A model generated the notes under the pieces. The model was not told where the DNA came from and ran no database searches. It was given only the letters and a program-made list of their open reading frames with translations. A stretch of DNA of 64,000 nucleotides from positions 1-64,000 of the forward strand of contig JAUZOO010000007.1 of assembly GCA_030706405.1 (NCBI GenBank), read 5' to 3'. Below are positions 32,801 through 53,158 of this stretch, piece after piece. The stretch is from Bacteroidota bacterium (lineage in GTDB: Bacteria; Bacteroidota; Bacteroidia; Bacteroidales; JAAUTT01). A program made the position numbers and the translations under genes. Each line of letters begins with the position of its first letter. Positions within the stretch are counted from its first letter, which is position 1.

Positions 32801-35800
32801 ATTGTATTTCGATTTGGGAAATGTGTCGGAAGATGTTCTTAAAGATTCGCGTAAATCGTATGAAAATGGCCTGCCCAAGAATGCTACGGTAACTGATGTG
32901 GATACGACCGTTTGGGGGCGCGTGGCTGCATCCACTTCGCTGGTCAACGCTTTTGATAATGATGCAAATTCCCGGAAATATCAGGATATAGGTCTGGACG
33001 GACTTAACGATGATGACGAAAAAAGTTTTTTTGGCAATTACCTTAATGCTTTAAAAAGCAAGAGCCAGGTGGCTTATGAAAAAGCCCTTGAAGACCCATC
33101 TTCAGACGACTTTCATTATTACCGTGGCAGCGATTATGATGTTCAACAATTAGGTATCCTCGAACGTTACAAAAAATACAACGGGCTCGAAGGTAATTCT
33201 CCGGCATTATCGGCCACGGGCGAGGCTTATTCCGGTTCGAGTACGCCTAATACAGAGGATATTAATCATGATAACACCCTGAGTGAAAACGAAAGTTTTT
33301 TTCAATATAAGGTTGATATTACTCGCGAAAAATTGAAAATCGGTTCCAATTTTATCGTTGACAGCGTTGTGTATGACGCTAAATTTCCCAATGGAACTCA
33401 TTCGCCTGAAAGCTGGTATCAGTTTCGTATTCCGGTTTCGGCATACGATAAAACCGTAGGTTCTATATCCGACTTTAAATCCATACGTTTTATGCGGATG
33501 TTCCTCAACGGGTTTGAAGATTCAGTAATCCTGAGGTTTGCACGCCTGCAGCTAATCCGTGGGGAATGGCGTAAATATAACCTGAGCTTCCGTTCGGGCA
33601 GCGAAGCAATTTCTATCCCGGAGGAAAAGGATGCCACCTTTGAAATATCAGCCGTAAATATTGAACAAAATTCAGGAAAGAAACCGATCAATTATGTATT
33701 GCCTCCCGGGGTAAGCCGTCAAACCGACCCGCAAAATACACAGGTAACCGAACTCAACGAACAAGCTATGGCGCTTAAGGTATATGATTTGCCTAATGGC
33801 GATGCCCGTGCTGCTTATAAAACTTTAAACCTCGATGTCCGCAAATACAAACGCCTGAAAATGGACGTTCATGCCGAACAGATTGAGGGTACAACGCTAA
33901 AGGATGATGACCTGACGCTTTTTGTAAGGATAGGCTCTGATTATACCAATAACTTTTATGAGTATGAGGTCCCGTTGAAATTGACTCCGTATGGGACTTA
34001 TAATAATAACAGCGAGGCTCAGCGGGCTATTGTATGGCCCGAAGATAACCGCATCGATATAGCTCTTGATGATCTTCAGGCAGTTAAACAGGCCCGGAAC
34101 CTGTCTATGGTTAAAAATGCGGCAGTAACCTCTACCACGGTTTTTCCTTATGTACTCGATGGTGTAAAAGGTACTTTTTATGTGTGTGGATATCCTAACC
34201 TGAGTAACCTTAAAACAATCATGATTGGGATTCGGCATCCTTATAGAGCATCTCAACAAGGACAAGTGCGGTCTGCCGAAGTTTGGGTTAATGAGTTGCG
34301 ATTGAGTGAGTTTGATGAACGGAAGGGCTGGGCTGCTAACTTACGACTAAACAGTCGGTTGTCCGATTTTGGCTCGGTGTCCATGTCCGGGTCTGTAGTA
34401 TCCAACGGTTTCGGAAGTATTGACAGCAATTCCGCGACCCGTAGCAACGAGGATGTTCAACAATACAGTATAGCCACGAACCTCGACCTGGGTAGGTTTT
34501 TCCCAAAGAAGACTGGGATTCAGATTCCGATGTATTTTGGCTATTCGCGCACATTGAAAACGCCTTATTATAACCCGTACGACCCGGATATGACGATGTC
34601 GGCCACACTCAAAGGATATGAGACCCAGGCACAGCGCGACTCGTTTAAACGTCTGGTGCAGGATCTGTCCATTACGCGGAGTATTAATTTTACTAATGTT
34701 CGCATTAACAGCAATAATCCGAAAAAACATTTTTTTGATCTTTCAAACTGGTCGTTGAATTATGCGTTCAGTGAGACTTATTTTCGGAATTACACCACCG
34801 AACGCGATGTTCAGAAGAATTATGCCGGAGGTTTGATGTATACCTATGCCTTTAAAACAAAGAGCATTTCGCCATTTCAAAAGATAGGTTTTCTGCGCGG
34901 AAGTCCCTTTAAACTTATCCGCGACTTTAATTTTCAACTTCTGCCTAACAGTTTCTCGTTTCGAACCGAAATGACCCGAAATTACAACGAAATTAAACTC
35001 CGGGATGTGGATAATTCGGGCTACCTACTTAAAACTACGGTTAGTAAGGATTTTCTGTGGAACCGATATTATGATTTAAGTTATGATATTACCAAGTCGT
35101 TGAAACTTGATTTTTCGGCCACCAACGTCGCCCGTATCGACGAACCTGCCGGAGTAGTTGACAAAGGCTTTATGGATCAATATCAGCATTGGAAAGATTC
35201 TGTGATGCACAATATTTTACGTGGTGGACGTACGTTGCATTATAAGCATGACATTAACCTTAATTATACCATTCCTGTAAATAAGTTGCCCCTGCTCGAC
35301 TGGACTAATGCAACGGCCCGTTATAATGCTACCTACGACTGGAGTGCGGCGAGCATCGATACGCTGAAGCTTGGAAATACCATTAATAACTCCAATACAT
35401 TTCGGATTGACGGAGGGCTTGCCTTTAATTCGTTATATAATAAAATTCCGTACTTCCGGAGTGTCACTCAACCGCGAGCGATTAACCGGCCCAAGGTCTA
35501 TAAAAAAGTTATTTTTGAGCGCGATCGCAGTTATTTGAGGGCGAATATGGTAAAGCCGATATTCCATAAATTGGGAACATCAGATGTTACCCTGAAAGTT
35601 TACGACTCCAAAGGCCAGGAAATTAAAGGTAAGGTTGCTGTTGTTAATGATAATAAGGTCAATTTTACTGCCGATAAGGATTATTCGGATGTGAAATTTG
35701 TGGTGGAAGGGAAGGTAGAGCAGAAGGCCAGCCCTATCAATTTTGTGGTGGATAATGCTACCCGGTTATTATTGAGCCTGAAAAATGTGACCGTGTCGTG

Positions 35801-37172: not shown

Positions 37173-37240
37173 ATTATTTGTTAAAATGTATTACATTTGA
37201 GTTGTTTAAGAAATGTCAAACACTTAAAATATAATTGATT

Positions 37241-37621
37241 ATGAATATCCCTGAAAATTTAAAGTACACCAAGGATCACGAATGGATTAAGGTGGAAGGC
37301 AATCGCGGCATCATTGGAATTACCGATTATGCACAAGGTGAACTTGGAGATATTGTATTTATTGAAATTGAGACTGTCGGTGAGTCGTTGGCAAAGGAAG
37401 AAGTTTTTGGTACCGTAGAAGCGGTGAAAACAGTTTCCGATCTGTTCATGCCCGTTAGCGGTAAAGTGTCGAAAGTTAATACTAAGCTTGAAGAAGCCCC
37501 GGAACTTGTAAACACTGATCCTTATGGCGATGGTTGGATGATCGAACTGGAAATAGCCGATGTTGCTGAATTAGATGGACTTCTTTCCGCTGCTCAATAC
37601 AAAGAATTGATTAATGCCTGA
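37241..37621 (+). CDS. gcvH: Glycine cleavage system H protein
   Basis: The ATG at 37241 is preferred to a TTG six bases upstream and gives 126 residues, the usual GcvH size. The sequence begins with YTKDHEWIKVEGNRGIIGIT and carries the lipoyl-acceptor Lys63 in FGTVEAVKTVSDLF. GcvH shuttles the aminomethyl group between the P, T and L proteins of glycine cleavage. The other gcv genes are not in the window; gcvH sits alone after sprA, as in many Bacteroidota. A TACATTTG -7-like box lies at 37192-37199. Confidence 0.96.
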   Translation: MNIPENLKYTKDHEWIKVEGNRGIIGITDYAQGELGDIVFIEIETVGESLAKEEVFGTVEAVKTVSDLFMPVSGKVSKVNTKLEEAPELVNTDPYGDGWMIELEIADVAELDGLLSAAQYKELINA

Positions 37622-39104: not shown

Positions 39105-39554
39105 TTAAAGTCGTTTTACATACGAAAGAATGACAATTGCTTTCCCTGCCTTTCCGTCTACAAACTGAACAAAAAAGTGGTAAGCATCTGCTTTCTGACA
39201 GTCAAACTCAAAGCTTTTATATTCTTTACCGGTTTGAGGGTTATAAGAGCTACCAAGCATTTTTTCTTTGTCAAAAAGTTGTACGTAGCCACGTCCCGGA
39301 GAATCATCGTCGGTACAGATGGTTATGCGGTAACGTGTGCTTTTTTGGAGCAATAATGAGAATTTGTACGATTGGGTTTTCTCGTTACTCTTAGTTGCTG
39401 GCAAATCGGCAGTGAAGTCTTTTAGATAACTGGCATCTTTACCTGCCATCTTTGAGCAAAGCTCTACTTTTTGAGCCTCAGTCTGCGCTTGTAACTTAAC
39501 AGAATAGCTTGCAGAGAGGAATAATACGGCAAGGATTAATACTATATTTTTCAT
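39105..39554 (-). CDS. Small secreted protein, unknown function
   Basis: The 149-residue protein has a signal peptide (MKNIVLILAVLFLSASYSV, cleavage near LQAQ). The mature part contains CSKMAGKDASYLKDFTADLP, then beta-strand-like segments (SYKFSLLLQKSTRYRITICT, GYVQLFDKE, YHFFVQFVDGKAGKAIVIL). The shape is that of a small beta-sandwich resembling pre-peptidase C-terminal or lectin-like folds, without an assignable active site. It follows the lipoprotein gene by 11 bases and is the last gene of the signalling run, so it may be a periplasmic or extracellular component of the system. I recognise no named family. Confidence 0.72.
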   Translation of the reverse strand: MKNIVLILAVLFLSASYSVKLQAQTEAQKVELCSKMAGKDASYLKDFTADLPATKSNEKTQSYKFSLLLQKSTRYRITICTDDDSPGRGYVQLFDKEKMLGSSYNPQTGKEYKSFEFDCQKADAYHFFVQFVDGKAGKAIVILSYVKRL

Positions 39555-39565
39555 TTCCGTAATTT

Positions 39566-40465
39566 TTACTTAATTAACTTGTTACGAACAATTTCGGTTT
39601 GGGCGATAATACTTTTAAGCTGTTCATCGGTAATTGTAATGATGCTCTTGGTATTTTGCTCAATATACAACATGCCGTTTCTCTCTACCGATTTAGGTTC
39701 GCCTTTTTCGATGGTAATTTTAACAGGTTCCAGTACCTTTTTAATGGTTTCCATTTCGGTAATAAGTTGGGCAAAATAGGGGTCTTTCTGATAGTTTTTG
39801 AGAATCAGCATCAACTCGTTTAATATGGTTTTTTGCCCACCGATATAATCGTTAATATCTTTGTTGGGATGTTCCTTGGCTACCTGTGTGATTATATATA
39901 ATCCTTCGATATAACCTCCGGCAACCATCAGCGTGCTTAGGTTCCCACGTTTATGTTTGCGCATGTAATCGTCCATCACGTTAAAACTGTGGATGGAGAT
40001 GTACATCAGCGAGTCGATGTTTTCGTTGTTGGTGGCCAGACGTTTAAGTGTGGTGAAATCGAAGAACTGCCCGATGCTAATGCCGTCAGCAAGACTTTTA
40101 ATGGAGGTAATGTATTGCAGTACGAGTGAAGTCTTGCTATAAATGTTGAGATATCCCAAGTCGGTGGCCATAATCCCAAGGTTAAAGGCTTTGGAATTGG
40201 CCGTATTGAAATTGTCGATTTTGGTTGGAGCAAGGTATTTCTGGGAGAATGGAACGCCAATGCTTTTGATTAATGAAGCAATTTCAACCGGAGAAGAAAT
40301 GTTCTGAACCAGGTTTTCCATGGCTTCTTTTGATACCGGAAGGGCACTGTCGCCTGACAGTGAGTCGTTTTCTCCGAATTCGCCGCCACTTTTTTGGGAA
40401 CCTCCGGAATGGCAGGATGCCATTAAGGCTATGGTTACAATCAGGTAAATGAACTTTTTAATCAT
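39566..40465 (-). CDS. Putative lipoprotein of unknown function
   Basis: The 299-residue protein has a lipoprotein signal with Cys18 (LMASC), then a Gly/Ser/acidic linker (GGSQKSGGEFGENDSLSGD). The remainder is mostly helical with no Cys, for example NLGIMATDLGYLNIYSKTS and LSTLMVAGGYIEGLYIITQV. The spacing of helices suggests an all-alpha bundle. No enzyme motif is visible. It lies 117 bases after the ABC transporter gene and 11 bases before the small secreted protein gene, so all three may share a transcript. The transporter could act on or through this lipoprotein; that is inference. Confidence 0.75.
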   Translation of the reverse strand: MIKKFIYLIVTIALMASCHSGGSQKSGGEFGENDSLSGDSALPVSKEAMENLVQNISSPVEIASLIKSIGVPFSQKYLAPTKIDNFNTANSKAFNLGIMATDLGYLNIYSKTSLVLQYITSIKSLADGISIGQFFDFTTLKRLATNNENIDSLMYISIHSFNVMDDYMRKHKRGNLSTLMVAGGYIEGLYIITQVAKEHPNKDINDYIGGQKTILNELMLILKNYQKDPYFAQLITEMETIKKVLEPVKITIEKGEPKSVERNGMLYIEQNTKSIITITDEQLKSIIAQTEIVRNKLIK

Positions 40466-40582
40466 GAGCTGAATTTTAAATTAAGAGCCAGTTACAAAAT
40501 TAGAAATTTATAGGCAAACTGAGCCTATAAATACAAAAAGCATTCCAAATTCCTTGTTGTATATAACTGGTTGATTTTTTAG

Positions 40583-43500
40583 TTATTCTTTAGTTTGTTT
40601 TTTAAAAGAGATTTTGCCAAAAAGATCCAGTAGCTTTTTTAAAGCATCATAATACAATGTAATGTACAGGGTCAGGGTGAACAGCCAAACCACAATAACA
40701 TTGTACCAATAAGTATCGTAAAGTTTGCCCAAAAACGGTTTACGAGGGGCAAAGAAATGCGAACGCCAGCTTAAAACACTTTTTGTTGTCGGATCCATGT
40801 AGATGGGATGATACTGTTGCACTAACTCGTGGTTAAATTCGAGTATCTTGTTTTTTTCAAGTACCTTTTTAACCATATCCGACAGGTTATCATTCTGATA
40901 TGTGTCTTTATAGAAATTATAACGTTTTTCGTTCTTTTTTAGTTCGTTGTTAATTTTACCCTGAAGCTCCTGCTCTGCCGCAGTAAATTCGGCCGAATGG
41001 TAAGCCAACATCTTGTCGATAAACGATTGCAGGGCGGTTTCCATTTTAGCTCCGTATTTTTCAGCCGAAATACCATCGGCATTCTTAAACGGAAGTTTGT
41101 GGTTTACCTTTAGTTCTTTGGCTATTTCATTTTTAAGAAGTTCGAGCTGGGCGCTTGTCTTTGTGATCTTGCCATTTTGAGCAAAGTCGGCTTTGCATGC
41201 ATCCAAGCGTTTTTGGAGTTCGGGGATAACAAAGGCCTGCTTGAAGTCTGCATTGCTTTTGCGTTTTTCTACATCGTAAAAGTGACGTTCAAACTTATTG
41301 TCCTTAAATTGGTGTACCATCAACGCTTCGTAGGACCATTTGGTGACCATAAATTCGGCCAGAAGAGGAACTTTATCCACGCTGCCAACGTTACGGTTGA
41401 GTTTATCAAAACTAAACATGGCACCGCTTAAAATCATCATTGGGATCATCACCAGCGGTATGAGGATGTAAATCGTAACAGCCGAATTGAACGAGGCCGA
41501 AATGTTAAGTCCAAGCATGTTAGCAAAAGCTGCTGTGGTAAAAAGTGCCAGCCAGTAGCTAAAATACATATCGTGGATACCTAAGATTGAGTTTGCAATC
41601 AGAACGAAGGTGATACTTTGTATTGCACTGATTGTAAATAGTATGAAAATTTTAGAAATCAGATAACCCGATTTGCTGAGGTTCAGGAATTTTTCGCGTT
41701 TTAGGATTTTGCGGTCGCGGAATATTTCCTCGGCACTGACGGTGAGTCCCAGGAATAACGCCACGATTAAACTCATGAAAATATAGATCGGAATATTTTC
41801 GTTTTCGCGGAAGATGTACACGTCTGAAGCCGGATCGGCAATGTACCGGATGATATACGATAGTATGAACCCGAGTATTGGGGCTTCAAGCAGGTTAAGG
41901 GCAATGTACTGAGTGTTGCTGATTTTTGAAAAAAAATCGCGCAGGGTATATATTTTTGTCTGGTTAAACCAGTTAGGTATGTTCAGTGTTTTGGGTGGCG
42001 CTTCGTTTATCGTTTGAAGCTTGTCTGCCACATGGTTTTCCTGGTAGTATTCTTCCCATTTAGTGGGCTGAACTTTGCGTTTATCGGTATAACGTCCGAA
42101 TTCGTCAACCACTTTGGCTTCAATGATGTTGAAGATGAGCTCGGGATTAACGTTCCCGCAAACCGGACATTCGCCCACGTCGCTGTTAATTTGGGCATCG
42201 ATGCGTTTGAAGTACATAACGGCCTCAACCGGGTTTCCGTAATAAATCATGTAACCGCCGGTGTCGAGGATAATCATCCGGTCGAACATCTTGTAGATCT
42301 CCGATGATGGCTGGTGGATAACCACAAAGATAAGCTTTCCTTTAAGGGCAAGTTCTCGCAGGAGGTCCATCACGTTTTCCGAGTCGCGTGAGGAGAGCCC
42401 GGAGGTTGGTTCGTCCACAAATAGGATGGACGGTTCGCGTATAAGTTCGAGTGCGATGTTAAGACGTTTACGTTGGCCTCCGCTGATGGTTTTGTTTAGC
42501 GGAGAGCCAACTTTTAAATCTTTGCGTTCGAGAAGCCCGAGACTTGATAGTGTTTTAATGACCAAACCATTGATTTCCTCATCGGTTTTGTCTTTAAAAC
42601 AAAGCTTGGCGCTGTAAAACAGGTTTTCGTAAACGGTAAGTTCTTCAATCAGCAGGTCGTCCTGTGGAATAAGCCCGATAACACCTTCAAGTTTTTCTTT
42701 TTCGGTATGCAGGTTATACCCGTTAATGATGACTTCGCCTTTCGACGGCGCTTCGGTTCCACAGAGTACGTTAAGCAGGGTTGTTTTTCCTGCACCGCTG
42801 GCTCCCATGATGCCGATAAGTTTGCCGTGCCCTTCGGCAAAGCTGATATTTTGCAAACCGAGGTTTCCATTGGCAAAGCGGAATTCGAGGTCGTTGACTT
42901 CGAACGAGATTTTGCTTGAGGTAATATCGGCCAGGAAGTGCGATACAACGTCGCTATAATAAACCGGTTTGCCTTTGGGCATTTTTACAGCGCTTCCGCT
43001 GGCAAACAGGTATATGCGTCGATTGCTGATTACCAGGCCGTTAAGGAATAGATCCTCGGCGCCGGTATATTTTAGAAAATATAGTTCAACGCTCGAAACC
43101 CGGAGGATGAAAATGTCCCCGTCGAGTTTCTCGGTTGGAATGAATTTACTTTGCTGGTTCGGTAAAGTTTTATCGGAAATTACCAGGATGTCGGGCTGGT
43201 CAAGTTCTTCCGGATGGTTGTTGATAACAAAGGTTTCGATGCTTTTGAATTCTTCTTTGGAGAATTTAAAAACTTCAGCCACTGTATTAATGATAGCCAT
43301 CCGTTGTTCCGAAAACTTGCGGTCGGTATTTACCAGCTCAAACAAGCGTACCAACGCCACAACTTTTTGTTCCTGGGTAAGGGTTTTGTTGATTTTTTTG
43401 CAAATACCCAGTATTCTTACCGAATCTTTTACCGAAGTTAATTTCTTTTTGGATTCTTCGCCATTTTCCGCCGGAGCCTTGTTAATATCGGCAAAATTGT

Positions 43501-43654
43501 CGAATAAAGCCAGATATTCCTGTACGGCTTCGTCGTTCAATTGCTGGGTGAGGAATGTTTTAACAAATTCTCTTTCACTATGTTCTACTCCTTCGTCCTG
43601 TTTGGCAATAATGGCAAACAGTTGCATTAACGCTTTTAGAATTTCTTCGCTCAT
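40583..43654 (-). CDS. ABCG-type ABC transporter fused to an N-terminal TerB-like domain
   Basis: The 1023-residue protein opens with an acidic all-helical TerB-like region (about 1-135: LMQLFAIIAKQDEGVEHSER). A linker domain (about 150-250) leads to an ATPase domain with Walker A GASGAGKTT (Lys290), signature TISGGQRKRLNIALE and Walker B SILFVDEPTSG. A CPVCG zinc-knuckle-like motif sits near residue 480. The membrane half (about 575-1010) has ABC2-type TM segments interrupted by a soluble, Lys/Glu-rich helical insert. The nucleotide domain followed by the membrane domain is the ABCG half-transporter order, usually used for export. The TerB fusion is unusual and suggests control of transport by a stress or signalling input. 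It lies 43 bases after the siaC-like gene. Confidence 0.88.
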   Translation of the reverse strand: MSEEILKALMQLFAIIAKQDEGVEHSEREFVKTFLTQQLNDEAVQEYLALFDNFADINKAPAENGEESKKKLTSVKDSVRILGICKKINKTLTQEQKVVALVRLFELVNTDRKFSEQRMAIINTVAEVFKFSKEEFKSIETFVINNHPEELDQPDILVISDKTLPNQQSKFIPTEKLDGDIFILRVSSVELYFLKYTGAEDLFLNGLVISNRRIYLFASGSAVKMPKGKPVYYSDVVSHFLADITSSKISFEVNDLEFRFANGNLGLQNISFAEGHGKLIGIMGASGAGKTTLLNVLCGTEAPSKGEVIINGYNLHTEKEKLEGVIGLIPQDDLLIEELTVYENLFYSAKLCFKDKTDEEINGLVIKTLSSLGLLERKDLKVGSPLNKTISGGQRKRLNIALELIREPSILFVDEPTSGLSSRDSENVMDLLRELALKGKLIFVVIHQPSSEIYKMFDRMIILDTGGYMIYYGNPVEAVMYFKRIDAQINSDVGECPVCGNVNPELIFNIIEAKVVDEFGRYTDKRKVQPTKWEEYYQENHVADKLQTINEAPPKTLNIPNWFNQTKIYTLRDFFSKISNTQYIALNLLEAPILGFILSYIIRYIADPASDVYIFRENENIPIYIFMSLIVALFLGLTVSAEEIFRDRKILKREKFLNLSKSGYLISKIFILFTISAIQSITFVLIANSILGIHDMYFSYWLALFTTAAFANMLGLNISASFNSAVTIYILIPLVMIPMMILSGAMFSFDKLNRNVGSVDKVPLLAEFMVTKWSYEALMVHQFKDNKFERHFYDVEKRKSNADFKQAFVIPELQKRLDACKADFAQNGKITKTSAQLELLKNEIAKELKVNHKLPFKNADGISAEKYGAKMETALQSFIDKMLAYHSAEFTAAEQELQGKINNELKKNEKRYNFYKDTYQNDNLSDMVKKVLEKNKILEFNHELVQQYHPIYMDPTTKSVLSWRSHFFAPRKPFLGKLYDTYWYNVIVVWLFTLTLYITLYYDALKKLLDLFGKISFKKQTKE

Positions 43655-43697
43655 ACTTTAAATTGATAATGACGAAAACCCAAGGCTTTACGGCTGA

Positions 43698-44075
43698 TTA
43701 TTGAATGGCTATTTGCTCAAATGTAACATCGACAATGTCGGCATATTCTTCACCGGCTTCTTTCATATCTTCGTCGTCTTCATCATAATACCATTTGGCA
43801 AGAACTTCATGGCCATTATTTTGGAGGTCCTCAAGTTTCATTAAGATATCGAGAATCATTTTGGACGAAGCGGTATTGAAATAGGCCAGTTTGAAGTCGA
43901 ATATGGTTTTTGCATTGGGCGACTGACTATAAGCTTCGAGCCAGTCGATGAGTGGGTTGTAAAATGCAGCCACGTCTTCAGGTAATGAGCGTCCCGAAAT
44001 TTCGAAGATGCCGTTTGCAGCGTCGAGGGTTACGGTTGGGGTATCATCGGTACCCTTAATTTTGATGACTTCCAT
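43698..44075 (-). CDS. siaC: SiaC-like regulatory phosphoprotein (DUF1987)
   Basis: The 125-residue protein matches the DUF1987/SiaC family: TPTVTLDAANGIFEISGRSLPEDVAAFY at the N-terminus (given here in abbreviated meaning: TPTVTLDA then GIFEISGRSLPED), WLEAYSQSPNAKTIFDFKL, and the phospho-site loop YFNTASSKMILDILM. The Thr of that loop is residue 68, the same position reported as phosphorylated in Pseudomonas SiaC. The fold is that of STAS-like anti-anti-sigma proteins. In Pseudomonas the unphosphorylated form activates the cyclase SiaD. No cyclase is present here, so the target differs. It lies 21 bases after the siaB-like gene. Confidence 0.9.
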   Translation of the reverse strand: MEVIKIKGTDDTPTVTLDAANGIFEISGRSLPEDVAAFYNPLIDWLEAYSQSPNAKTIFDFKLAYFNTASSKMILDILMKLEDLQNNGHEVLAKWYYDEDDEDMKEAGEEYADIVDVTFEQIAIQ

Positions 44076-44096
44076 AGCTAATATTTTATCTAAAAG

Positions 44097-44681
44097 TTAA
44101 ACTGTTCTTGAAATGGTTGAGGTTAAAAGGAAAAAAGAGGTCTGACTATTAATGGGCAAAAAATGGTATTCGAGGTTTTTGCCGGTTTTGCGTTTAATGT
44201 CGATAAAACCTAAGCCGGCGCCGCCTTTATCAGATAACCGGCCTTCTTTGATTTGTTTTTTGTAAAGCTCGGTAAGACCTTCTTTGTCAAGACTGTTTAT
44301 CTGTTCGAGAAGACTTTTAAGGTCGGCGATGCGGCTGTTGTCAACGGCATTTCCGGTGGTTACCGAATAGTCATCTTTCCCTTTGGCTACCAGAAATATA
44401 CCTCTTCCGGAGAACATGGTTTCATTTTGCGCAAAATCGTCGGCATGTTTGCTGATGTTTTGGAGGCATTCTACCATGACATGGAAAACCTTCTTCTGAA
44501 CGGAATTAGACTCTTCTTCTTTAGCCATATTCGATTCGGTAAGGGAGGTAAAGGCCTTGGTAAGCTGATGGGTGATTTCGCCTTCGTAAACAAGGGTAAT
44601 CTCGTGTTCTTTCATTGATTTGTAGAACTGGTAAACAAATTCGAGAAAACCTTTTGCATCTTTGGTTTCAGTTGTTTCCAT
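44097..44681 (-). CDS. siaB: SiaB-like protein kinase (DUF6272, HATPase fold)
   Basis: The 194-residue protein has the GHKL-type ATP-binding pattern: an N box in VFHVMVECLQNISKHAD and a G box in GGAGLGFIDIKRKTGK. The N-terminal part (FLEFVYQFYKSMKEHEITLV) fits the SiaB family. SiaB phosphorylates SiaC on Thr68. The genes for its substrate (21 bases downstream) and for the opposing phosphatase (32 bases upstream) are adjacent, completing a partner-switch module. Confidence 0.88.
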   Translation of the reverse strand: METTETKDAKGFLEFVYQFYKSMKEHEITLVYEGEITHQLTKAFTSLTESNMAKEEESNSVQKKVFHVMVECLQNISKHADDFAQNETMFSGRGIFLVAKGKDDYSVTTGNAVDNSRIADLKSLLEQINSLDKEGLTELYKKQIKEGRLSDKGGAGLGFIDIKRKTGKNLEYHFLPINSQTSFFLLTSTISRTV

Positions 44682-44713
44682 AGATATTTATTTGTGATTT
44701 TTGGTGAGTAAAA

Positions 44714-47326
44714 TTAAAATTCTATTCCAATTAATAAAACATCGTCTATTTGCTTTTGGTCGCCCTGCCATTCCGAGAATGTTCGTTCGAAGAGGGAGTT
44801 GTATTCTTCCATCGAGAAATCAGGGTTTGAGCTGATTAATTCACGTACCCTGCCCGGTGAGAATTTTTTGATTATCGGGCCTCCGAGCTGATCTGTCAGC
44901 CCGTCGGAGAAGAAGAATATTTTGTCGCCCTGTTGGGTTGGGATAACGTAGTCGGTAAAGTTTTTTTCAGGTCTGTTCGGAAGCGGAATACCCCCTATGG
45001 CTTTGCGGTCGCCCTTGTACTCGATTAGTTCGCCGTTTCGCAACATGTATAGTGGACGGTGAGCACCGGCAAAGTGAATTTCGTTTTTGCGAGGGTCTAT
45101 TTTTACCAGAGCGAGATCCATGCCATCGCGGCCGTCGGCATCATCACTATTCTGACGGAGGGTGTGGCGGACGCCATTGTGTAACAAGTCGCATACTTCA
45201 CCTGCGGAATATTCGCGTTCGTGGTCAACGATGTTGTTGAGAATGAAATACCCGATGAACGAAAGCAATGCCCCTGGTACTCCGTGTCCGGTACAGTCTA
45301 CTGCCGCAATGTAAAGTACCCCCTCGCGTTTGAAGAACCATGGAAAGTCGCCGCTAACTACGTCGCGTGGTTTATAGAAGATGAACGATTTGGGCAGCGA
45401 TTCGCGTAAGAGTTTATTGTCCGGAAGAATGGCCGACTGGATGCGTTGCGCGTAGTTAATGGAATCTTCTAGCTTGCGGTTTTTATCGGCAATTTCCAGT
45501 TCAATGCGTTTGGCTTCGGTAATGTCGTGAGCTACAAAGAGTACCGTTTCCAGTTCATTTTCGTTAAACTCGGGAATGGCATCGATACTCATAATTCGTT
45601 TCAGGGTTTTAACCCCAATTTTGATATCGATGGTGATTTGGTTGTTGCGTTTGCTGGGAGAGGCTTTTATGCTCGAAAGTGTCGATTTAAAATATTCACG
45701 CAGATTTTCAGGAAGCTCAATGTCGCCGATGGTTTTGTTCATCAGGTCAACGCTACGCACGCCAATATAATCTTCAACAACCGGGTTGGCATAGAAGAAC
45801 ATGCCATGGATGTTGAGACGCAGGATCATATCGAGCGAATTTTCCGAGAGTGCCTGCATCTTACTTTTCATGCGTTCCTCTTTCTCTGCCCGTTTACGTT
45901 CGGTAATATCCTGCGAATTCAGGATGATGCCTTTAATGGCAGGGTCGGGGAGAAGGTTTCGTCCGGTGGTTTCCAGGAAGATTTTTTGTCCGTCTTTTTT
46001 AAGATATGTATATTGAATGGTGATAGGTTCCGACGGATCTTCCAGCAGTTCTTTAAACATATTGCGGATTTCGGTTTCGCCTTTACGTGTCAGGCGGTCA
46101 AAATCTTTGCCTTTCATCATTTCATCGGGAGTATACCCCAATATGGTTGTAACCGAAGGACTGATATAGGTCAGTTCCTGATTTTCGTCGTAAATAGAGA
46201 TGACCTCTGATGCATTTTCCAGTAAGGAGTGAAGCCGCTTCTGAGCATTCTCTACTTTGTCAATCTGGGTTTCGAGGTTTTCGTTGGAGCGTTGAAGCTC
46301 TTCCTGAGTGGCGCGCATCTCTTCGGCGCTCTGGCGTAGCTCTTCTTCGTTTTCCTGAAGTTCTACGGTCATTTCGCGCGATTCTTCGAGCAGCCGTTCA
46401 GTCTGTTCGCTTACCCGCAGATTAAAGATGGTGCGGGCAATGATTTCGCCCAACTCTTTCATGAAATGGAGGGTGAGCTCCGGAAGTTCGTCGAGCAGGA
46501 ACGCAAATTCGATGACACCCTGCAGTTTTTCGTCCGAAACCAGCGGGACGATAAGAATACTTTTAGGTTTTTTATCGCCTAAAATACCTGAAGAAATGGT
46601 TGCATAGTCGTCGGGGATTTCGGTGCGATAAACGATGTCCATTTCGTAGGCGCATTGCCCAATAAGCCCTTGTCCGACGCGAAATTCCTGGCTTATATAT
46701 TTCTTGCGGTTGTAGGCATACGTAGAAATGTTGGTAAGTACTTCGCGGTCTTCGTCGAAAAGATAGAAAGCACCCTGAACTGCGTTGATGTATTTGGTAA
46801 GGGAGATTAGCGTTTCGTAAGCCAGTATGTCTATCTTGTTGTGAATTCTCAGGATGTTTGATATCTGGTCTTTCCCGGCAGCTATCCAGCTAAGCTCGGC
46901 TTCTTTGCGGGTGGTGAGTAAAAGATTTTCACGCATTAAAAGCAGCGATCGGCCAAGCTCATCGGCTTCCCCATTGGTCTCAAAATGACTTGTATAGTCT
47001 CCTTGTCCAATTTTTTTAGCGAAATCGGCATTTTTTTGGATGAGTTCGTTACGTTTTTGGATTTCGGTATTGTAACGAATATGCTCTTTTTCGCGGAAAG
47101 AGAACAAAAAATGCAGGCCGAAGCCGGTAATTATCGGAATTAAGTCGATAAGGAAAAGTCCCGGGTGTTCTGCATGGATTTTAAACAGCGTTTCGATCGA
47201 CACCGGAAGTTGTCCGGCGATAAGATCGAGCATCCATGCGCAAACCGGGAAAATAAGGCTTACGACCACCCCAATCAATATAAATTGGTTTTTAGGTTTA
47301 TCTATATGTGCCAGTTTTGCCGACAT
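44714..47326 (-). CDS. siaA: SiaA-like membrane PP2C (SpoIIE) phosphatase with HAMP, GAF and two PAS domains
   Basis: The 870-residue protein has two TM segments (about 15-40 and 55-75) with a short external loop, a HAMP-like stretch, a GAF domain (about 160-300) and a Glu-rich coiled coil (about 305-365). Two PAS domains (about 366-480 and 490-605) and a C-terminal PP2C_SIG domain (about 635-870) follow. The phosphatase metal and active-site motifs are VVSGDFPWFF, VDCTGHGVPGA, DGMDLALVKI and FFFSDGLTDQ. It should dephosphorylate SiaC in response to ligands sensed by GAF or PAS. Unlike Pseudomonas SiaA, which uses a large periplasmic sensor, this one is built for intracellular or membrane-proximal sensing. 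Its GAF is paralogous to those in two other genes of the run. Confidence 0.88.
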   Translation of the reverse strand: MSAKLAHIDKPKNQFILIGVVVSLIFPVCAWMLDLIAGQLPVSIETLFKIHAEHPGLFLIDLIPIITGFGLHFLFSFREKEHIRYNTEIQKRNELIQKNADFAKKIGQGDYTSHFETNGEADELGRSLLLMRENLLLTTRKEAELSWIAAGKDQISNILRIHNKIDILAYETLISLTKYINAVQGAFYLFDEDREVLTNISTYAYNRKKYISQEFRVGQGLIGQCAYEMDIVYRTEIPDDYATISSGILGDKKPKSILIVPLVSDEKLQGVIEFAFLLDELPELTLHFMKELGEIIARTIFNLRVSEQTERLLEESREMTVELQENEEELRQSAEEMRATQEELQRSNENLETQIDKVENAQKRLHSLLENASEVISIYDENQELTYISPSVTTILGYTPDEMMKGKDFDRLTRKGETEIRNMFKELLEDPSEPITIQYTYLKKDGQKIFLETTGRNLLPDPAIKGIILNSQDITERKRAEKEERMKSKMQALSENSLDMILRLNIHGMFFYANPVVEDYIGVRSVDLMNKTIGDIELPENLREYFKSTLSSIKASPSKRNNQITIDIKIGVKTLKRIMSIDAIPEFNENELETVLFVAHDITEAKRIELEIADKNRKLEDSINYAQRIQSAILPDNKLLRESLPKSFIFYKPRDVVSGDFPWFFKREGVLYIAAVDCTGHGVPGALLSFIGYFILNNIVDHEREYSAGEVCDLLHNGVRHTLRQNSDDADGRDGMDLALVKIDPRKNEIHFAGAHRPLYMLRNGELIEYKGDRKAIGGIPLPNRPEKNFTDYVIPTQQGDKIFFFSDGLTDQLGGPIIKKFSPGRVRELISSNPDFSMEEYNSLFERTFSEWQGDQKQIDDVLLIGIEF

Positions 47327-47337
47327 AAGCTAAGTTA

Positions 47338-48072
47338 CTATTTATTCAGGTTTATAATAATACCGGCAACGTGCGCCGACAGTTCCTCAAGAGCATTGCG
47401 GTTTTCGTCAGAAAGTTTGCCAAACGTCGCATATTCAATAAGCCCTACAATATCACTATTATGAATTAGAGGAACAAAAACCAACGATTTCGGAGCACCT
47501 TGCCCGAGTCCGGAGGCGATGGTCATGTAATTGTCGGGAATATTGTTGATTGAAACAATATTTTTGTTTTTTACAGCTTGTCCGGGTAATGTTTCGCCGG
47601 TTGTAAATTCAGCTGGTTTTGTCTCCGAAAAATAGGCATATTGGGCGTAACAATGAAAGATGTCGGAAGTTGCACCCTTGCTGTAAAACAGAGCCTGAAC
47701 AATATTGAACTCGTTTGCCATATTTTTAAGCAATTGTTCTCCAAAATGTTCAATGTCAGTTGCTGATGAAGGTATTATATCCGGAATGTTGATTGCTGAG
47801 GCGTTGTTGTCTTTTTTCTCCTCAATTATGGAGCTGTTTTTTTGCGTATTGGATTCAGCTGCTGTTATACTTCTTTCAAGAACTGTTGATGTGGCGTAAT
47901 TGCTCATGGCAAGGGCAAATAGGGCCGTACCGATCAGTATCAGGATGAAAATTTCAACATAGCTGCTCGTATTTCCTGCCGTGGTGTTAATTACTGCGGC
48001 AAATAACAGAAAAACTGTTATCAGAAATAAGAAGTAAAGTGCAAAATATGTGAGTTTTATGTGTTTCTTCAT
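47338..48072 (-). CDS. Membrane-anchored GAF-domain protein
   Basis: The 244-residue protein has two TM helices (about 8-27 and 35-55), a polar linker and a C-terminal GAF domain (about 95-244). The GAF contains GETLPGQAVKNKNIVSINNI, DNYMTIASGLGQGAPKSLVF and GLIEYATFGKLSD, closely resembling the GAF domains of the neighbouring PP2C and sensor proteins. There is no output domain, so it may sequester ligand, form heterodimers with the other GAF proteins or serve as an adaptor. It lies 5 bases after cheB and 11 before the PP2C gene. Confidence 0.82.
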   Translation of the reverse strand: MKKHIKLTYFALYFLFLITVFLLFAAVINTTAGNTSSYVEIFILILIGTALFALAMSNYATSTVLERSITAAESNTQKNSSIIEEKKDNNASAINIPDIIPSSATDIEHFGEQLLKNMANEFNIVQALFYSKGATSDIFHCYAQYAYFSETKPAEFTTGETLPGQAVKNKNIVSINNIPDNYMTIASGLGQGAPKSLVFVPLIHNSDIVGLIEYATFGKLSDENRNALEELSAHVAGIIINLNK

Positions 48073-48077
48073 GTACT

Positions 48078-48635
48078 TTATTTTAGTTTTAGAAGAAAGT
48101 TGATAATTTGGTCTGTTGTATATACATGATCAACCTGGGTTAGTTTCATGGCTGCTTCGGACATAGTACGAACCTGGCATTCCCTGGGGTCTTGAACAAT
48201 GGTGAGCCCGTTGTATTCCTTTACTTTTTGTAATCCGTAACTTCCGTCGCTGTTGGCTCCGGAGAGAATTATTCCTATTAGCTTGTCACGATAAGCCTGA
48301 GCTGCGGTAACGAATGACAGATCGATGGACGGACGTGAATGGTTTACCGGTTCTTCAGTCGATAACGCAATGCGGTTGCCCAGTTCGATGTACATGTGGT
48401 AATTGGCTGGAGCAAGATAAGCTCTTCCTGGTTTTATTTGTTCCTTGTCGTCGGGTTCAATAATAGGGATGTTGGATTTGAGCATCAGGGCTTCGAGAAA
48501 GCCTGAGCGCACATGTTTTAACCGGTGTAGGCTCAACAATACAGGGACGTTAAGGTCTTTAGGCAAAGCACTTAAAATCTTTGTCACTACCTGAAAACTC
48601 CCGGCAGATCCTCCAATGACTATCGCTTTATACAT
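48078..48635 (-). CDS. CheB-type methylesterase domain protein, no receiver domain
   Basis: The 185-residue protein is a stand-alone CheB catalytic domain with the full triad: Ser10 in VIGGSAGS, His37 in LSLHRLKH and Asp130 in ILSGANSDGSYG. The substrate-pocket motifs GRAYLAPANYHMYIE and AMKLTQVDHV are present. Classical CheB removes methyl groups from, or deamidates, glutamyl residues of chemoreceptors and has a regulatory receiver; that receiver is missing. No chemoreceptor, CheA or CheW gene is nearby, so the Glu-rich coiled coils of the GAF/PAS proteins are possible substrates (inference). Its start overlaps the upstream CheR stop as TAATG. Confidence 0.9.
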   Translation of the reverse strand: MYKAIVIGGSAGSFQVVTKILSALPKDLNVPVLLSLHRLKHVRSGFLEALMLKSNIPIIEPDDKEQIKPGRAYLAPANYHMYIELGNRIALSTEEPVNHSRPSIDLSFVTAAQAYRDKLIGIILSGANSDGSYGLQKVKEYNGLTIVQDPRECQVRTMSEAAMKLTQVDHVYTTDQIINFLLKLK

Positions 48636-49456
48636 TATTTGCGTTTATAAATACTTTCAGTTTTGCTGATACGTATAAAATTGTTATTTCCGTACAAGGT
48701 GCTTATAGATTCCTTGGTGCCTATGGCAAGGATTCCATTGGGAACCATAGTATTATATATAGTCTTTAATATCCTGTTTTGCAGGGTGGTATTAAAGTAA
48801 ATCATTTTATTGCGGAATAGTACCAGTTTAATATTTTGAGGCACTGGTTCTGTTTCAATGTTCTGTTTTGTAAAACGGACGTTCTTGATGAGCGAAATGT
48901 CTCGGGTGATGCGTCCGTCCGTTAGTGTATAGTATTTTGGAAGAGCCAATTTACCATTTGCCCGTACGTAATTGTCGCAGCTGATTTCTTCTTTGCTATT
49001 AAGCATGATGCCCGATTTCATGGTTTCGATACTGGTTTCGCTAAGGGCCGATACCAGTATGCTGGCTTTATCCAGCAAGTTCATTTCATGGAGCATAATA
49101 GCCAGAGAGAAAAGTTCATCGCCTGATACCGAAAACGGAAGCCATATTTTTAAGTCTTTGCCTGTTTCGTTTTGCAGGGTCGGCAGTATTTCTTCGCGTA
49201 GAAGTCTCCATAGCGAAGGATCGCGGAACATTTCGGTGGAGCCTGTGGTTAGCTGGTCGATGAACGGATGAATAAATTGAGGCTCGTCGGTTAATCGGTT
49301 AATGAGAATGTCGGGATATTTCAGGTTATTCTGTTCTATAATTTTTTCTATCCGGCGTTTTAGCGACGTTAAAGCATAGTCGGAGAAATCGTAATTATAT
49401 TTTTGGTTAATTACGTTAATTATGTTTCGGGTTTCGACTATTCCAATTTCAGGCAT
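48635..49456 (-). CDS. CheR-family methyltransferase with degenerate SAM-binding motif
   Basis: The 273-residue protein has the CheR N-terminal helical domain (YNYDFSDYALTSLKRRIEKI, TGSTEMFRDPSLWRLLREEI) and the Rossmann-like C-terminal domain. The usual SAM motif (GCSxGEE) is replaced by WLPFSVSGDELFSLA, losing the key Gly and Cys. The usual ICRNVLIYF motif reads LVLFRNKMIYF. SAM binding is therefore doubtful, and the protein may be a non-catalytic receptor-binding or regulatory CheR. A second, intact CheR is encoded 2.8 kb upstream. The stop overlaps the cheB start by one base. Confidence 0.85.
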   Translation of the reverse strand: MPEIGIVETRNIINVINQKYNYDFSDYALTSLKRRIEKIIEQNNLKYPDILINRLTDEPQFIHPFIDQLTTGSTEMFRDPSLWRLLREEILPTLQNETGKDLKIWLPFSVSGDELFSLAIMLHEMNLLDKASILVSALSETSIETMKSGIMLNSKEEISCDNYVRANGKLALPKYYTLTDGRITRDISLIKNVRFTKQNIETEPVPQNIKLVLFRNKMIYFNTTLQNRILKTIYNTMVPNGILAIGTKESISTLYGNNNFIRISKTESIYKRK

Positions 49457-49477
49457 ACTAAAGATATTTTACAGACA

Positions 49478-52165
49478 TCAGGCTTTGCCCTGAATGTTTT
49501 TAAGACGTTCGATTTCTTTGTTGGCATCTTCCAGAACCTGGTATTTCAGTTTCTTTTCGGTAATGTCCTGAGCTAATATGTATATTCCGGTGATATTGCC
49601 GAGAGAATCTTTTAACGGTATAAAACTTGCAATAAGCCAACTTTCTTCTTTGGTAGGCTTGGTTCGTTTGATTACACCTTTATAGGTCTTGTCCTTGAGT
49701 ACTTCGGAGAGAATTATTTCGAACTGGTCGAGTTCGTCGGGACGAAGAAATTTCCGGTAATCTTTTCCGATGAGTTCTTCGGGGTTATAACCGGTTATAT
49801 CGGTATAATTGTTGTTTATTTCGCAAATAGTACAGTCGGGCGAGATTTCACATTGAATAAACCCTTGTTTTATTAAACTCTTAAAATCGTTGAAAGAGAA
49901 ATCGAGCTCTGAAATTTGTTTTTCTTTTTTTGCTACGGTTTGTTCGAGCTTGCGGTGCCCGGTGACATCGGTAGCGATACCCAACACTTTGTATGGACGA
50001 CCGTCGTGGTCTACAATCGGGGAGTAGTTTATTTCAAGGAAAATTCCGGAATCAACGTCAGGAATTACCTCTTCGGTACGGTTAATGATTCGTCCTTGTT
50101 TAAGATCCTGAAGAAGTTTGTAAAATTCATCTTTCTCATGATCGAAAACGAAAACACCTTTGAGGTAACGGCCAATTAGCTCGTCACGTCTCATTTTTAC
50201 AACGGTGGCAAACTTCCGATTAGCTTCGATGACTCGGCCCTCCATGTCGACTTGTACCACAAGTGCAGAAGAATCGACGGCAAAGGCCAGGCTGTTGATC
50301 TCGGCTTCGCGACGTGCTGATTCTTCCTGGGTTGCCTGAAGTTCTTCAAGGCTTTGACGCATTTCTTCCTCCTGCTGGGCCATTTCTTCGGCTTGCCGTT
50401 TTGATTGTTCAAGCAGGTGAGTAGTGTTGATGTTAATTTTTACAGAAGCAAAGGTAGAGGCTATACTTTGCGCCAATTTTTCAACAAATTCAATTTCATA
50501 AGTCTCAAAAATGGAGAAAGATGCGATTTCGAGTATCCCGAATATTTGCTTTTCGGTTTTGAGCGGAACAATTAACAAACTTCGAGGAGGGGCTTCGCCA
50601 AGTCCGGAGGTTATTTCAAAGTAATTTTCGGGAATATCGGTAATAAATATTGTTTGTTTTTCCTGGGCACAGGTACCTACCAGTCCTTCGCCAATTTCGA
50701 TACGTTTTTTCAGATGTTTTTTACGATCAAAAGCAAACGCAGAAATGAGTTCGAGATGGAGATCGTGCTCATTGTCGTCGTTGTACGAAAAAATGCCTCC
50801 TTGGTTGGCTTTGAGATATTTAACAAGGTTAGAGATGATTTTGTCCGAAAGCGACGACAGGTTGTCGGTTTGGATGCGCAGTATCTCACTGAATTTCGCC
50901 AGTCCTTCGTTTGCCCAGGCCCGTTTTTGTTCGGCGGCTTTATATTTCTGATCTTCTTCGGCAGCTTTTTTAAGGCTCTTTTCCATGTCGAGAAGGGCGT
51001 TGGCTAAGGTATCTTCTTTGCTGAGCGGAAGGAGTTTTTCACTGGTATCCCCGGCCTCGAGGCGCGAAGCAAACCGGATTTTATCACGAAGGCTGTCGAG
51101 AAAGTTCGAAAAAAGTTGCGAAATCACCGATAATTCAGCGATAGCCTCCATTTTAGGAACGGCTGGAAGTTTGCCCTGTACCAGATCAGATGCAAATATT
51201 TTAATTTGGTCAATAGTTTTTCTTACCAGCCTGGAATATGCTGACAGAAACCAAAGATAAACGGCCGTAAGAATTATGATTAAAAGCGATTTTACAAGAA
51301 ACGAAATGAAAATTTTGTGTTCGATGTCTGCATTAATACTGGCTTGGAGCTGGGCTGATTTTTGAGCAACAACATCCAGAAGTAATTCAACTTCGCCAAC
51401 AGCGCCCTCTTTGCCAATTAAACCGGTTTCGGCATCGGCTTTTTGGAGGGATTGGGCGAGTGCGGAAAACGACTCGAGTTCTTTCAGGAATTTAAGCTTG
51501 TTATCTACGGAAAGTCCTTTGATTCCAGTTCTCCTTGGAGAGTTTAATGCAATTTTAAGGGCATTGGCTTGATCGAGTATTTGTTGAATTTTTTCGCTTG
51601 TTTTGTTTCGCTGATACTCTGTAATAGCCTTGCCTAATAATGACACCCGTGTTATAAGCGAAGGATTATTGTATGATGCCGCCAGTTCTTCGAGAAAGTT
51701 TCCAAAGCGGGTAAATTCGCCCGAGCGCCCGGTAGTGTAAAGCCCCCTGTCGAGAATTTTTTGTTTTAAGACGATGTATTTGTCCGAAAGATTTTTGCAA
51801 TCGGTTTTGAGCGATTCGGCTTTCGCAATTGTACGTTTGTTTAACGAAAGAAATGGCGCATGGGTTATCGAATCGAGCGTATTCTGGTATTGGGCGAGGA
51901 GGTGTTGTACACTATCGAACGTAACGCTTTTTTCGGAAGCGTAGAATTGGTTGTCTGCAAAGTCGTTTTGCTTTAACCATTCGTGAAGCACTTTGAGTTT
52001 ACCCGGAACAAGTAGTGTTTTGTTTACCTGGTTTTGATAGGAAATGGTTTGACGGGTAAAGAAGTAGTTGTTGTACTGAAATATGAAGAAAATGATAAAT
52101 AACAGCACAATTGTGCCTGTAAAACATACCAGTCGGGTTTTAAGAGTGCTATATTTTCCTGTCAT
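49478..52165 (-). CDS. Membrane sensor with GAF and two PAS domains but no output domain
   Basis: The 895-residue protein has a TM helix at about 11-30, a large periplasmic helical domain (about 35-285), a second TM at about 288-310, a HAMP-like stretch and a GAF domain (about 415-575). A Gln/Glu-rich coiled coil (about 585-620) and two PAS domains (about 620-740 and 760-885) follow. It ends in a short coiled tail after DITEKKLKYQ, without a kinase, GGDEF, EAL or phosphatase domain. The periplasmic helical bundle is like those of chemoreceptors or CHASE-type sensors, and the Glu-rich coiled coil could be a CheR/CheB target. It lies between the two cheR genes. Confidence 0.85.
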   Translation of the reverse strand: MTGKYSTLKTRLVCFTGTIVLLFIIFFIFQYNNYFFTRQTISYQNQVNKTLLVPGKLKVLHEWLKQNDFADNQFYASEKSVTFDSVQHLLAQYQNTLDSITHAPFLSLNKRTIAKAESLKTDCKNLSDKYIVLKQKILDRGLYTTGRSGEFTRFGNFLEELAASYNNPSLITRVSLLGKAITEYQRNKTSEKIQQILDQANALKIALNSPRRTGIKGLSVDNKLKFLKELESFSALAQSLQKADAETGLIGKEGAVGEVELLLDVVAQKSAQLQASINADIEHKIFISFLVKSLLIIILTAVYLWFLSAYSRLVRKTIDQIKIFASDLVQGKLPAVPKMEAIAELSVISQLFSNFLDSLRDKIRFASRLEAGDTSEKLLPLSKEDTLANALLDMEKSLKKAAEEDQKYKAAEQKRAWANEGLAKFSEILRIQTDNLSSLSDKIISNLVKYLKANQGGIFSYNDDNEHDLHLELISAFAFDRKKHLKKRIEIGEGLVGTCAQEKQTIFITDIPENYFEITSGLGEAPPRSLLIVPLKTEKQIFGILEIASFSIFETYEIEFVEKLAQSIASTFASVKININTTHLLEQSKRQAEEMAQQEEEMRQSLEELQATQEESARREAEINSLAFAVDSSALVVQVDMEGRVIEANRKFATVVKMRRDELIGRYLKGVFVFDHEKDEFYKLLQDLKQGRIINRTEEVIPDVDSGIFLEINYSPIVDHDGRPYKVLGIATDVTGHRKLEQTVAKKEKQISELDFSFNDFKSLIKQGFIQCEISPDCTICEINNNYTDITGYNPEELIGKDYRKFLRPDELDQFEIILSEVLKDKTYKGVIKRTKPTKEESWLIASFIPLKDSLGNITGIYILAQDITEKKLKYQVLEDANKEIERLKNIQGKA

Positions 52166-52297
52166 TTCTTTATTTCGTATTTCGAAAAATTCTTAGTATT
52201 TGTCCCTGCCCCTTTGGGCATGGCCATATTTTTCCAAATATAATCTGTTAAACGTTATTAAAAAAAAGATTAGTGCCCAAAAGCGTTAAATGACGGA

Positions 52298-53158
52298 TTA
52301 TATCGAAAAAACCACTTCTTTTTTATGGTAAAACTGGTTGTTTTTTTCAAATTTTCCGGCAAAAGGTCCCATGATGGATTCATGCATTCCAAGCCACAGA
52401 ATTCCGTTGTTGTACAGGTTGTTGTAAAACAGATCAAAAATTTTGTTTTGCAGGGCGTAGTTGAAATAAATGATAACGTTGCGGCAAATGATAATATCGA
52501 ATTTGACGTAAAAAATGTTTCCGTCCCTTACTAAGTCATGTTTTTTAAAGATTGGCTTTTCGGCGAGAAACGAGTTCATCTTTATGATGTCTTTGGTCTT
52601 GTCTATTTCAAAATATTTTGAATAGGGAACGTCGCGGAAGTCGTCGTAGTTTAAGGGGTTTTCCTTTAATACTTTGTCGAAATTATCGAGGTATGATGCG
52701 TTGAAGCGGTATTTGTAGATGCCTTTTTGGGCGGCATCCAACACATCGGTGTTCAGGTCGGAAGCGTATATGCGGGCTTTTTCGAGTAGGTTCAGTTCGT
52801 TTAATACCATCAGCATCGAATATACTTCCTGTCCGGTTGAACATCCTGCATGCCAGATATTTATTGTTGATTGGTGAGCTAGTTTCGGAAGGACGGAATG
52901 CTTTAGTAGTTGCCAAATATTAGGATCGCGAAAGAGTTCGGTAGTATTTACCGTTACGTCTTTTACCACCTTTTCTACCTGTTGTTTGTCGTTTTTTATT
53001 TGAGCGATAAGCCCCGGCAGATCCATTTTATAGTCTGTCAGTATTTTAGCCACCCTTCTTTTTAGCGATTTGTCGGAATATTCGCTAAAATCGTAGCCCG
53101 AATGGCTTTTTACAGCCGTTATAAATTGTTGTAATTCGATACTGCTTATTGCTATCAT
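52298..53158 (-). CDS. CheR-family protein methyltransferase (intact motif)
   Basis: The 286-residue protein has the helical CheR N domain (SGYDFSEYSDKSLKRRVAKI, VNTTELFRDPNIWQLLKHSV) and a SAM-binding domain with WHAGCSTGQEVYSMLMVL, ARIYASDLNTDVLDAAQKG and IIICRNVIIYFNYALQNKIF. All expected motifs are present. It transfers a methyl group from SAM to glutamyl side chains, classically of chemoreceptors. No receptor is encoded nearby; the GAF/PAS sensor gene directly follows with a 132-base gap. A TAGCTTTG -7-like box lies on the minus strand at 53199-53206, making this the likely first gene of the signalling operon. Confidence 0.92.
   Translation of the reverse strand: MIAISSIELQQFITAVKSHSGYDFSEYSDKSLKRRVAKILTDYKMDLPGLIAQIKNDKQQVEKVVKDVTVNTTELFRDPNIWQLLKHSVLPKLAHQSTINIWHAGCSTGQEVYSMLMVLNELNLLEKARIYASDLNTDVLDAAQKGIYKYRFNASYLDNFDKVLKENPLNYDDFRDVPYSKYFEIDKTKDIIKMNSFLAEKPIFKKHDLVRDGNIFYVKFDIIICRNVIIYFNYALQNKIFDLFYNNLYNNGILWLGMHESIMGPFAGKFEKNNQFYHKKEVVFSI

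Follow-up and report, generated by a model that had tools for sequence, protein, structure and literature searches.

The best described relative of the locus considered here is the SiaABCD system of Pseudomonas aeruginosa. In the available portions of the published accounts, phosphorylation of SiaC at Thr68 is balanced by SiaA and SiaB (PMC7647112), unphosphorylated SiaC binds to and activates the diguanylate cyclase SiaD, and DUF1987 proteins, the family of SiaC, are proposed to modulate adjacent proteins (PMC8457831). A related set of genes lies at positions 39105-53158 of a stretch of 64,000 nucleotides, referred to below in its entirety as the window, from a Bacteroidota genome of 4.93 Mb (99.7% complete; contig JAUZOO010000007.1). 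Eleven minus-strand open reading frames (ORFs) follow one another there in the order CheR1, sensor (SENS), CheR2, CheB domain, GAF protein, SiaA, SiaB, SiaC, TerB-ABCG transporter, lipoprotein and small secreted protein (Table 1). Like SiaABCD as far as the same accounts describe it, the block encodes a PP2C-type SiaA, a SiaB kinase, a SiaC with Thr68 and an adjacent candidate target gene, but it has no SiaD, its SiaA carries GAF and PAS input domains, CheR and CheB are present, and the conserved gene proposed as the neighbouring target encodes an ABC exporter (PMC7647112, PMC8457831). The block is real and conserved, and a SiaD-type output is excluded in this genome. The reading preferred here, to which a probability of about 0.5 is assigned, is that the block forms a stand-alone partner switch that is tuned by methylation and controls the exporter; we infer from sequence features that methylation may be coupled to the phospho-switch and that SiaC may act on the transporter.

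A second likeness is to Rv1747 and PknF of Mycobacterium tuberculosis, an FHA-bearing ABC exporter and a Ser/Thr kinase of the same operon by which it is modulated; to judge by the available portions of the sources, this pair offers the closest parallel for an FHA-bearing exporter under kinase control (PMC5549992, PMC3908365). The block differs from this pair in combining TerB with one FHA domain, in its SiaB-type kinase and in having SiaC as an intermediate. The CheR/CheB pair and the Glu pairs spaced by seven residues, the latter as in two of six of the genome's own methyl-accepting chemotaxis protein (MCP) ORFs, recall chemosensory pathways, whereas the block has no MCP, CheA or CheW, its CheB is without a receiver domain and it is also present in genomes that lack MCPs. 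No description of such an operon was found in the open-licence literature, as judged by titles on CheR/CheB with SpoIIE, SiaC/DUF6272, CheB-CheR fusions and TerB/FHA transporters, and the only SiaC/DUF1987 target found in the portions of this literature available is the cyclase SiaD. The names DUF1987, DUF6272 and SiaB/SiaC family appear in one paper of that literature, and CheR together with CheB and SpoIIE in four.

The eleven same-strand genes, their order and their domains had been proposed by the initial annotation, and all were recovered by an ORF scan and a Pfam/NCBIfam domain search of the window. Eight of the ten intergenic gaps measure -1 to 43 bases, and those between CheR1 and the sensor and between the transporter and the lipoprotein measure 132 and 117. 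An alignment of 18 transporter sequences, including that of the window, was used to fetch named loci, of which the best 80 were taken (more exist), among them loci of Alkaliflexus imshenetskii, Natronoflexus, Labilibacter, Geofilum, Plebeiobacterium and Carboxylicivirga. Genes were counted when present anywhere in the stretch on either strand, with CheB called above 200 bits, and the constancy of the transporter is true by construction, as it served to fetch the loci. Among the 62 named loci that cover 9 kb or more upstream, SiaB was present in 61, SiaC in 60, SiaA in 54, the GAF protein in 50, CheB in 49, and CheR1 and CheR2 in 48 each; the corresponding figures for 36 loci from a survey of the order are 36 each for SiaA, SiaB and SiaC, 26 for the GAF protein, 25 for CheR1 and 24 each for CheR2 and CheB. 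The lipoprotein and secreted protein genes were each found in 66 of the 69 named loci with enough downstream sequence and in 37 of 40 in the order survey. CheR1, CheR2 and CheB are nearly all-or-none (all three in 67, none in 20 and part of them in 11 of the 98 loci of both sets, which share organisms and are not to be added as independent). Because tens of divergent loci, named and surveyed alike, share this order, it is not due to chance, and the co-occurrence survey that the initial annotation called for thus bears out a conserved neighbourhood. Among 296 genomes surveyed across the phylum, 7 have a transporter match with an E value no higher than 1e-100, counting that of the window itself. 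Three of the 7 come from a single family, which lies outside the order but within the same class, and their transporters are 52-53% identical. Their three loci run CheR2-CheB-GAF-SiaA-SiaB-SiaC-transporter-lipoprotein-secreted protein, with no CheR1; a fourth genome of this family (G224) gave no transporter match at the same cut-off.

GGDEF domains were found neither in the block, in agreement with the initial annotation, nor in a search of the whole genome, which rules out a SiaD encoded elsewhere as the partner of SiaC. Among 149 genomes surveyed in the order, SiaC occurs in 63 and GGDEF in 5, with only G066 having both. As there is no GGDEF in this genome, nor in 62 of the 63 SiaC-bearing genomes, a SiaD-type output is excluded, and SiaC therefore acts on something else here. 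SiaC/DUF1987 proteins are common in the order, with as many as 21 matches in a single genome. The neighbour of the present one is a conserved exporter, and GGDEF domains of any kind are confined to those five genomes of the survey. If the preferred reading is true, SiaC would have outputs of a second class, in addition to cyclases, and CheR/CheB would gain a class of substrate other than chemoreceptors, with defined residues.

The presence of a SiaABC-like partner switch is supported by conserved catalytic and phospho-acceptor residues, judging from which the switch looks intact. SiaA scores 166.6 bits with the NCBIfam SiaA model, under the equivalog cut-off of 700, and its PP2C residues D660, D677, G680, D808, G809, D861 and D862 are at least 93% conserved in 88 relatives. 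SiaB exceeds the cut-off of the SiaB family model NF038262 (168.5 bits, cut-off 85) and does not reach the narrower equivalog NF038264 (78.6 of 225); E71, N75 and a glycine box are conserved in its alignment with relatives. SiaC likewise falls short of its equivalog NF038265 (93.3 of 150), and Thr68, which lies in the motif NTASSK, is conserved to at least 93% when the protein is aligned with 90 SiaC proteins of the fetched loci.

SiaC genes are also found outside such blocks. The genome encodes five SiaC and two SiaB proteins, and three of the further SiaC genes, on C17, C12 and C15 (L219, L220 and L221), have neither SiaB nor a transporter alongside; that on C17 lies approximately 3 kb from an MCP gene. 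High numbers of SiaC matches are seen for example in G042, G047 and G070, and the maximum of 21 in one genome is far above the need of one switch. G057 carries three consecutive SiaC genes on contig 152, locus L203 (9380-10559) has two tandem SiaB genes followed by SiaC, and in L169 (1536-3040) a second SiaB-SiaC pair stands directly upstream of a CheR1-led block, in a genome without an MCP match.

The transporter is of the ABCG type, with a nucleotide-binding domain followed by a transmembrane (TM) domain; ABC_tran and ABC2_membrane are above cut-off and TIGR00955 is below it (260.9 bits, cut-off 736). An AlphaFold model of residues 1-250, with a mean pLDDT (predicted local distance difference test) of 87.6, consists of a TerB-like helical part, which in structure comparison matches 2h5n (Z 8.5) and 2ou3, and a beta domain for which nearly all listed Foldseek rows contain FHA domains, none of the rows reaching E 0.001 (the top FHA rows have a probability near 1.00 and E 0.03 or worse). 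FHA chains align to the latter with Z of about 6-7, up to 7.2, in a range below 8 that can reflect a common arrangement. The architecture is thus TerB-FHA-ABCG, the FHA fold being assigned by model and lying N-terminal of the nucleotide-binding domain. The invariant FHA residues across aligned transporters, N205, G206 and G220, look structural, and the phosphothreonine contacts usual for FHA domains are not apparent, which may be a further difference from Rv1747. A simple model in which the FHA domain reads phosphorylated SiaC is accordingly weak, and because of these two features a contact with unphosphorylated SiaC, by analogy to SiaD, is favoured over phospho-reading.

No other genes upstream of the transporter are as constant as SiaB and SiaC. 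Adjacency was counted on the matches listed (150 SiaC and 137 transporter rows), among which SiaC lies directly upstream of 38 of 43 window-type transporters, with gaps of 22-372, and is placed tail-to-tail with 23 and in tandem with one of 94 other, more distant transporters; the partial match of G044 (64%) is included in the 94 here and is treated as window-type among the 44 genomes discussed below. The rough chance of such an adjacency is about 0.016 per gene. The link therefore holds in two arrangements, tandem for the window type and tail-to-tail for a more distant type, and the tail-to-tail form also occurs in this genome, at C21. Of the five window-type rows without a listed SiaC, G047 and G007 have one by profile, G070 ends at a contig edge and G090 has SiaB without SiaC near the transporter; the fifth is taken up below. 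Just upstream of a third transporter of the genome lies a lipoprotein homologue, and SiaC is absent from that stretch. SiaC may instead have a GAF/PAS protein, a transcription factor or some other target as its partner, the transporter adjoining it as both serve the envelope. The surplus of SiaC over SiaB (five to two here, up to 21 SiaC per genome) and the three SiaC genes standing apart from SiaB and transporter speak for such a partner, as do two loci where SiaB adjoins the transporter and SiaC is missing, and the lack of a nearby SiaC for most other-type transporters among the matches listed. This alternative is nevertheless considered unlikely, given that the adjacency recurs in both tandem and convergent arrangements and that Carboxylicivirga-type loci retain, in the stretch seen, only SiaB-SiaC-transporter-lipoprotein-secreted protein.

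Conserved residues are also seen in the methylation genes. The S-adenosylmethionine motif of CheR1, WHAGCSTGQE, is kept across 74 aligned rows (the window's own included), and in CheR2 the (S/T)G(D/E)E core is retained as SGDE. The possibility that CheR2, whose motif is without the Gly seen in CheR1, is a dead enzyme was dropped, the core being kept in most aligned rows. CheB gave a Pfam match to the methylesterase domain only and none to a receiver domain, and its residues S10, H37 and D130, which we take to be the catalytic triad, are conserved in the alignment with relatives. The initial annotation had described the system as devoid of a chemotaxis apparatus. This holds for the block, where a Pfam search found no MCP, CheA or CheW, and fails for the genome, which elsewhere has 17 MCP-signal matches, six CheW-domain matches in three CheA/CheW-type sets (three of the matches in ORFs of about 680 residues, one of which was checked and is CheA), as well as a separate canonical cluster on C12 with CheA, CheW, CheR, CheD and a receiver-bearing CheB of 358 residues. 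The CheR and CheB of the operon could thus serve the chemoreceptors of the cell in trans, with SiaABC and the transporter merely co-transcribed, and the MCP matches and CheA/CheW-type sets would give them substrates. The C12 cluster, however, has a CheR and CheB of its own, whose substrate is likely the chemoreceptors, and the CheB of the block has no receiver. Moreover, among 44 genomes with a window-type transporter in the matches listed, 8 have no MCP match (completeness 90-99%; CheA and CheW were not searched in these genomes), and in 7 of these 8 the block still contains CheR2 and CheB, which means that the substrate does not have to be an MCP. The presence of CheB shows no dependence on MCPs (20 of 31 evaluable genomes with and 7 of 8 without them, p=0.39). 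Chemoreceptors are therefore rejected as a necessary substrate, the discovery of MCP and CheA genes elsewhere in the genome does not overturn a separate role for the block, and service in trans is regarded as improbable.

Candidate substrates are found within the block itself, where the GAF-PAS linkers of SENS and SiaA are candidate methylation helices with five and three Glu/Gln pairs respectively. Among 350 unclassified ORFs from the same loci, each 300 residues or longer, none has three or more such pairs in seven-residue register, and a run at least as long as that observed arises in 1.5% of shuffled 56-residue linkers on average (38 sensors). Where the sensor or SiaA is in view and CheB is called above 60 bits, at least three pairs in either protein occur in 22 of 26 blocks with CheB and in 4 of 12 without (p=0.003), five loci with short upstream sequence being omitted, one of which (L195) has a SiaA with four pairs and no CheB in 7.8 kb. 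That methylation acts only on the small GAF protein or the sensor, feeding something other than SiaA, agrees with Marinilabiliaceae-type loci, whose sensor keeps three heptad pairs and whose SiaA does not reach three, and is slightly less probable again than service in trans, since 56 of 81 SiaA-class ORFs from loci with CheB have three to five pairs, that of the window has three, and the sensor has no match to a kinase or output domain in a Pfam search.

A CheB-CheR fusion encoded on another contig of the same genome (G000:C15; L057 5179-8112) also couples CheB and CheR to Glu-pair heptads ahead of a PAS domain. It has six Glu/Gln pairs (NEEL repeats) in seven-residue register between CheR and PAS, possibly forming a self-methylating helix, and differs from the block in being a single polypeptide with no partner switch.

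For the preferred reading of a methylation-tuned switch that controls the exporter, the following mechanism is proposed. The GAF, PAS and TM inputs of the sensor, the small GAF protein and SiaA would sense a cellular or membrane cue, and CheR1 and CheR2 would methylate, and CheB demethylate, the Glu pairs of the linkers and so set the gain of the SiaA phosphatase, as in the gain control of chemoreceptors. SiaB would phosphorylate and SiaA dephosphorylate SiaC at Thr68, and SiaC in one state, by analogy to SiaC-SiaD the unphosphorylated one, may bind the cytoplasmic TerB-FHA part and gate export by the ABCG transporter. Once the product has been exported, the lipoprotein and the small secreted protein may serve it in the periplasm or the outer membrane. 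In its full form this amounts to chemoreceptor-type adaptation without a chemoreceptor, in which the Glu-pair helices of the sensor and, directly, of a 'methyl-accepting phosphatase' would be reversibly methylated and the exporter set through SiaB and a SiaC contact at TerB-FHA, a version that is held tentatively, at rather less than even odds.

Several observations weigh against this reading. The sensor was recognised in just 33 of the 62 named and 21 of the 36 order-survey loci, and in Carboxylicivirga-type loci CheR, CheB and SiaA are all absent from the 9 kb seen. The association of CheB with Glu pairs rests mostly on one clade; on the transporter tree (a test run without L175) it leaves only 3 independent pairs, of which a mean of 1.4 are in favour and 0 opposite, and is not significant. 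Four blocks with CheB have fewer than three pairs, the three blocks from outside the order also have fewer than three (two in SiaA), and where at least three are kept in the absence of CheB, they lie in the sensor in three blocks and in SiaA in one. The pair measure is itself an insensitive indicator of methylation helices, since three pairs are reached in only two of six of the genome's own MCP ORFs examined (2, 3 and 2, then one with four and two with fewer than three). With regard to the exporter, in addition to the FHA contacts that are not apparent, 70 of the 94 other-type transporter rows have no SiaC within 1 kb among the matches listed, a figure that overstates absence, G077 has neither SiaB nor SiaC within 5.3 kb of its transporter, and L106 and L187 have SiaB directly before the transporter and no SiaC by profile or motif in the stretch.

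Table 1 Features of the block in window coordinates (all on the minus strand; scores are Pfam bits)
Feature	Position	Residues	Description
CheR1	52298..53158 (-)	286	CheR-type protein glutamate methyltransferase; CheR 125.6, CheR_N 32.9
Sensor (SENS)	49478..52165 (-)	895	Two TM-like stretches, GAF, two PAS
SENS GAF-PAS linker	50309..50395 (-)	591-619	EE pairs at 593, 600, 607, 614, seven-residue register
CheR2	48635..49456 (-)	273	Diverged CheR; CheR 83.4
CheB	48078..48635 (-)	185	Methylesterase domain alone; CheB_methylest 163.9 over residues 5-180
Small GAF protein	47338..48072 (-)	244	Two TM-like stretches; GAF_2 44.5
SiaA-like phosphatase	44714..47326 (-)	870	TM-like stretches, GAF, PAS, PP2C/SpoIIE; SpoIIE 59.5
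SiaA GAF-PAS linker	46280..46363 (-)	322-349	EE pairs at 328, 335, 342, seven-residue register
SiaB-family kinase	44097..44681 (-)	194	DUF6272
SiaC-family phosphoprotein	43698..44075 (-)	125	DUF1987; SiaC 147.7
SiaC Thr68 codon	43872..43874 (-)	68	Predicted phosphorylation site
TerB-FHA-ABCG half-transporter	40583..43654 (-)	1023	ABC_tran 107.2, ABC2_membrane 72.7, TerB 37.1
TerB-like helical domain	43202..43654 (-)	1-151	Transporter N-terminus MSEEILKALMQL
FHA-fold domain	42917..43201 (-)	152-246	Part of transporter
Putative lipoprotein	39566..40465 (-)		Cys18; conserved, mostly helical
Small secreted-looking protein	39105..39554 (-)	149	Conserved, no family

The lipoprotein and secreted protein genes that close the block gave no family match above cut-off in Pfam/NCBIfam, and a structure search that sought a function for the lipoprotein from its fold returned no convincing PDB match. 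Outside the block, positions 29811-37172 of the window encode a very long secreted protein, presumably resembling SprA, a component of the type IX secretion system, and the ORF that then follows at 37235-37621 is presumably GcvH-like.

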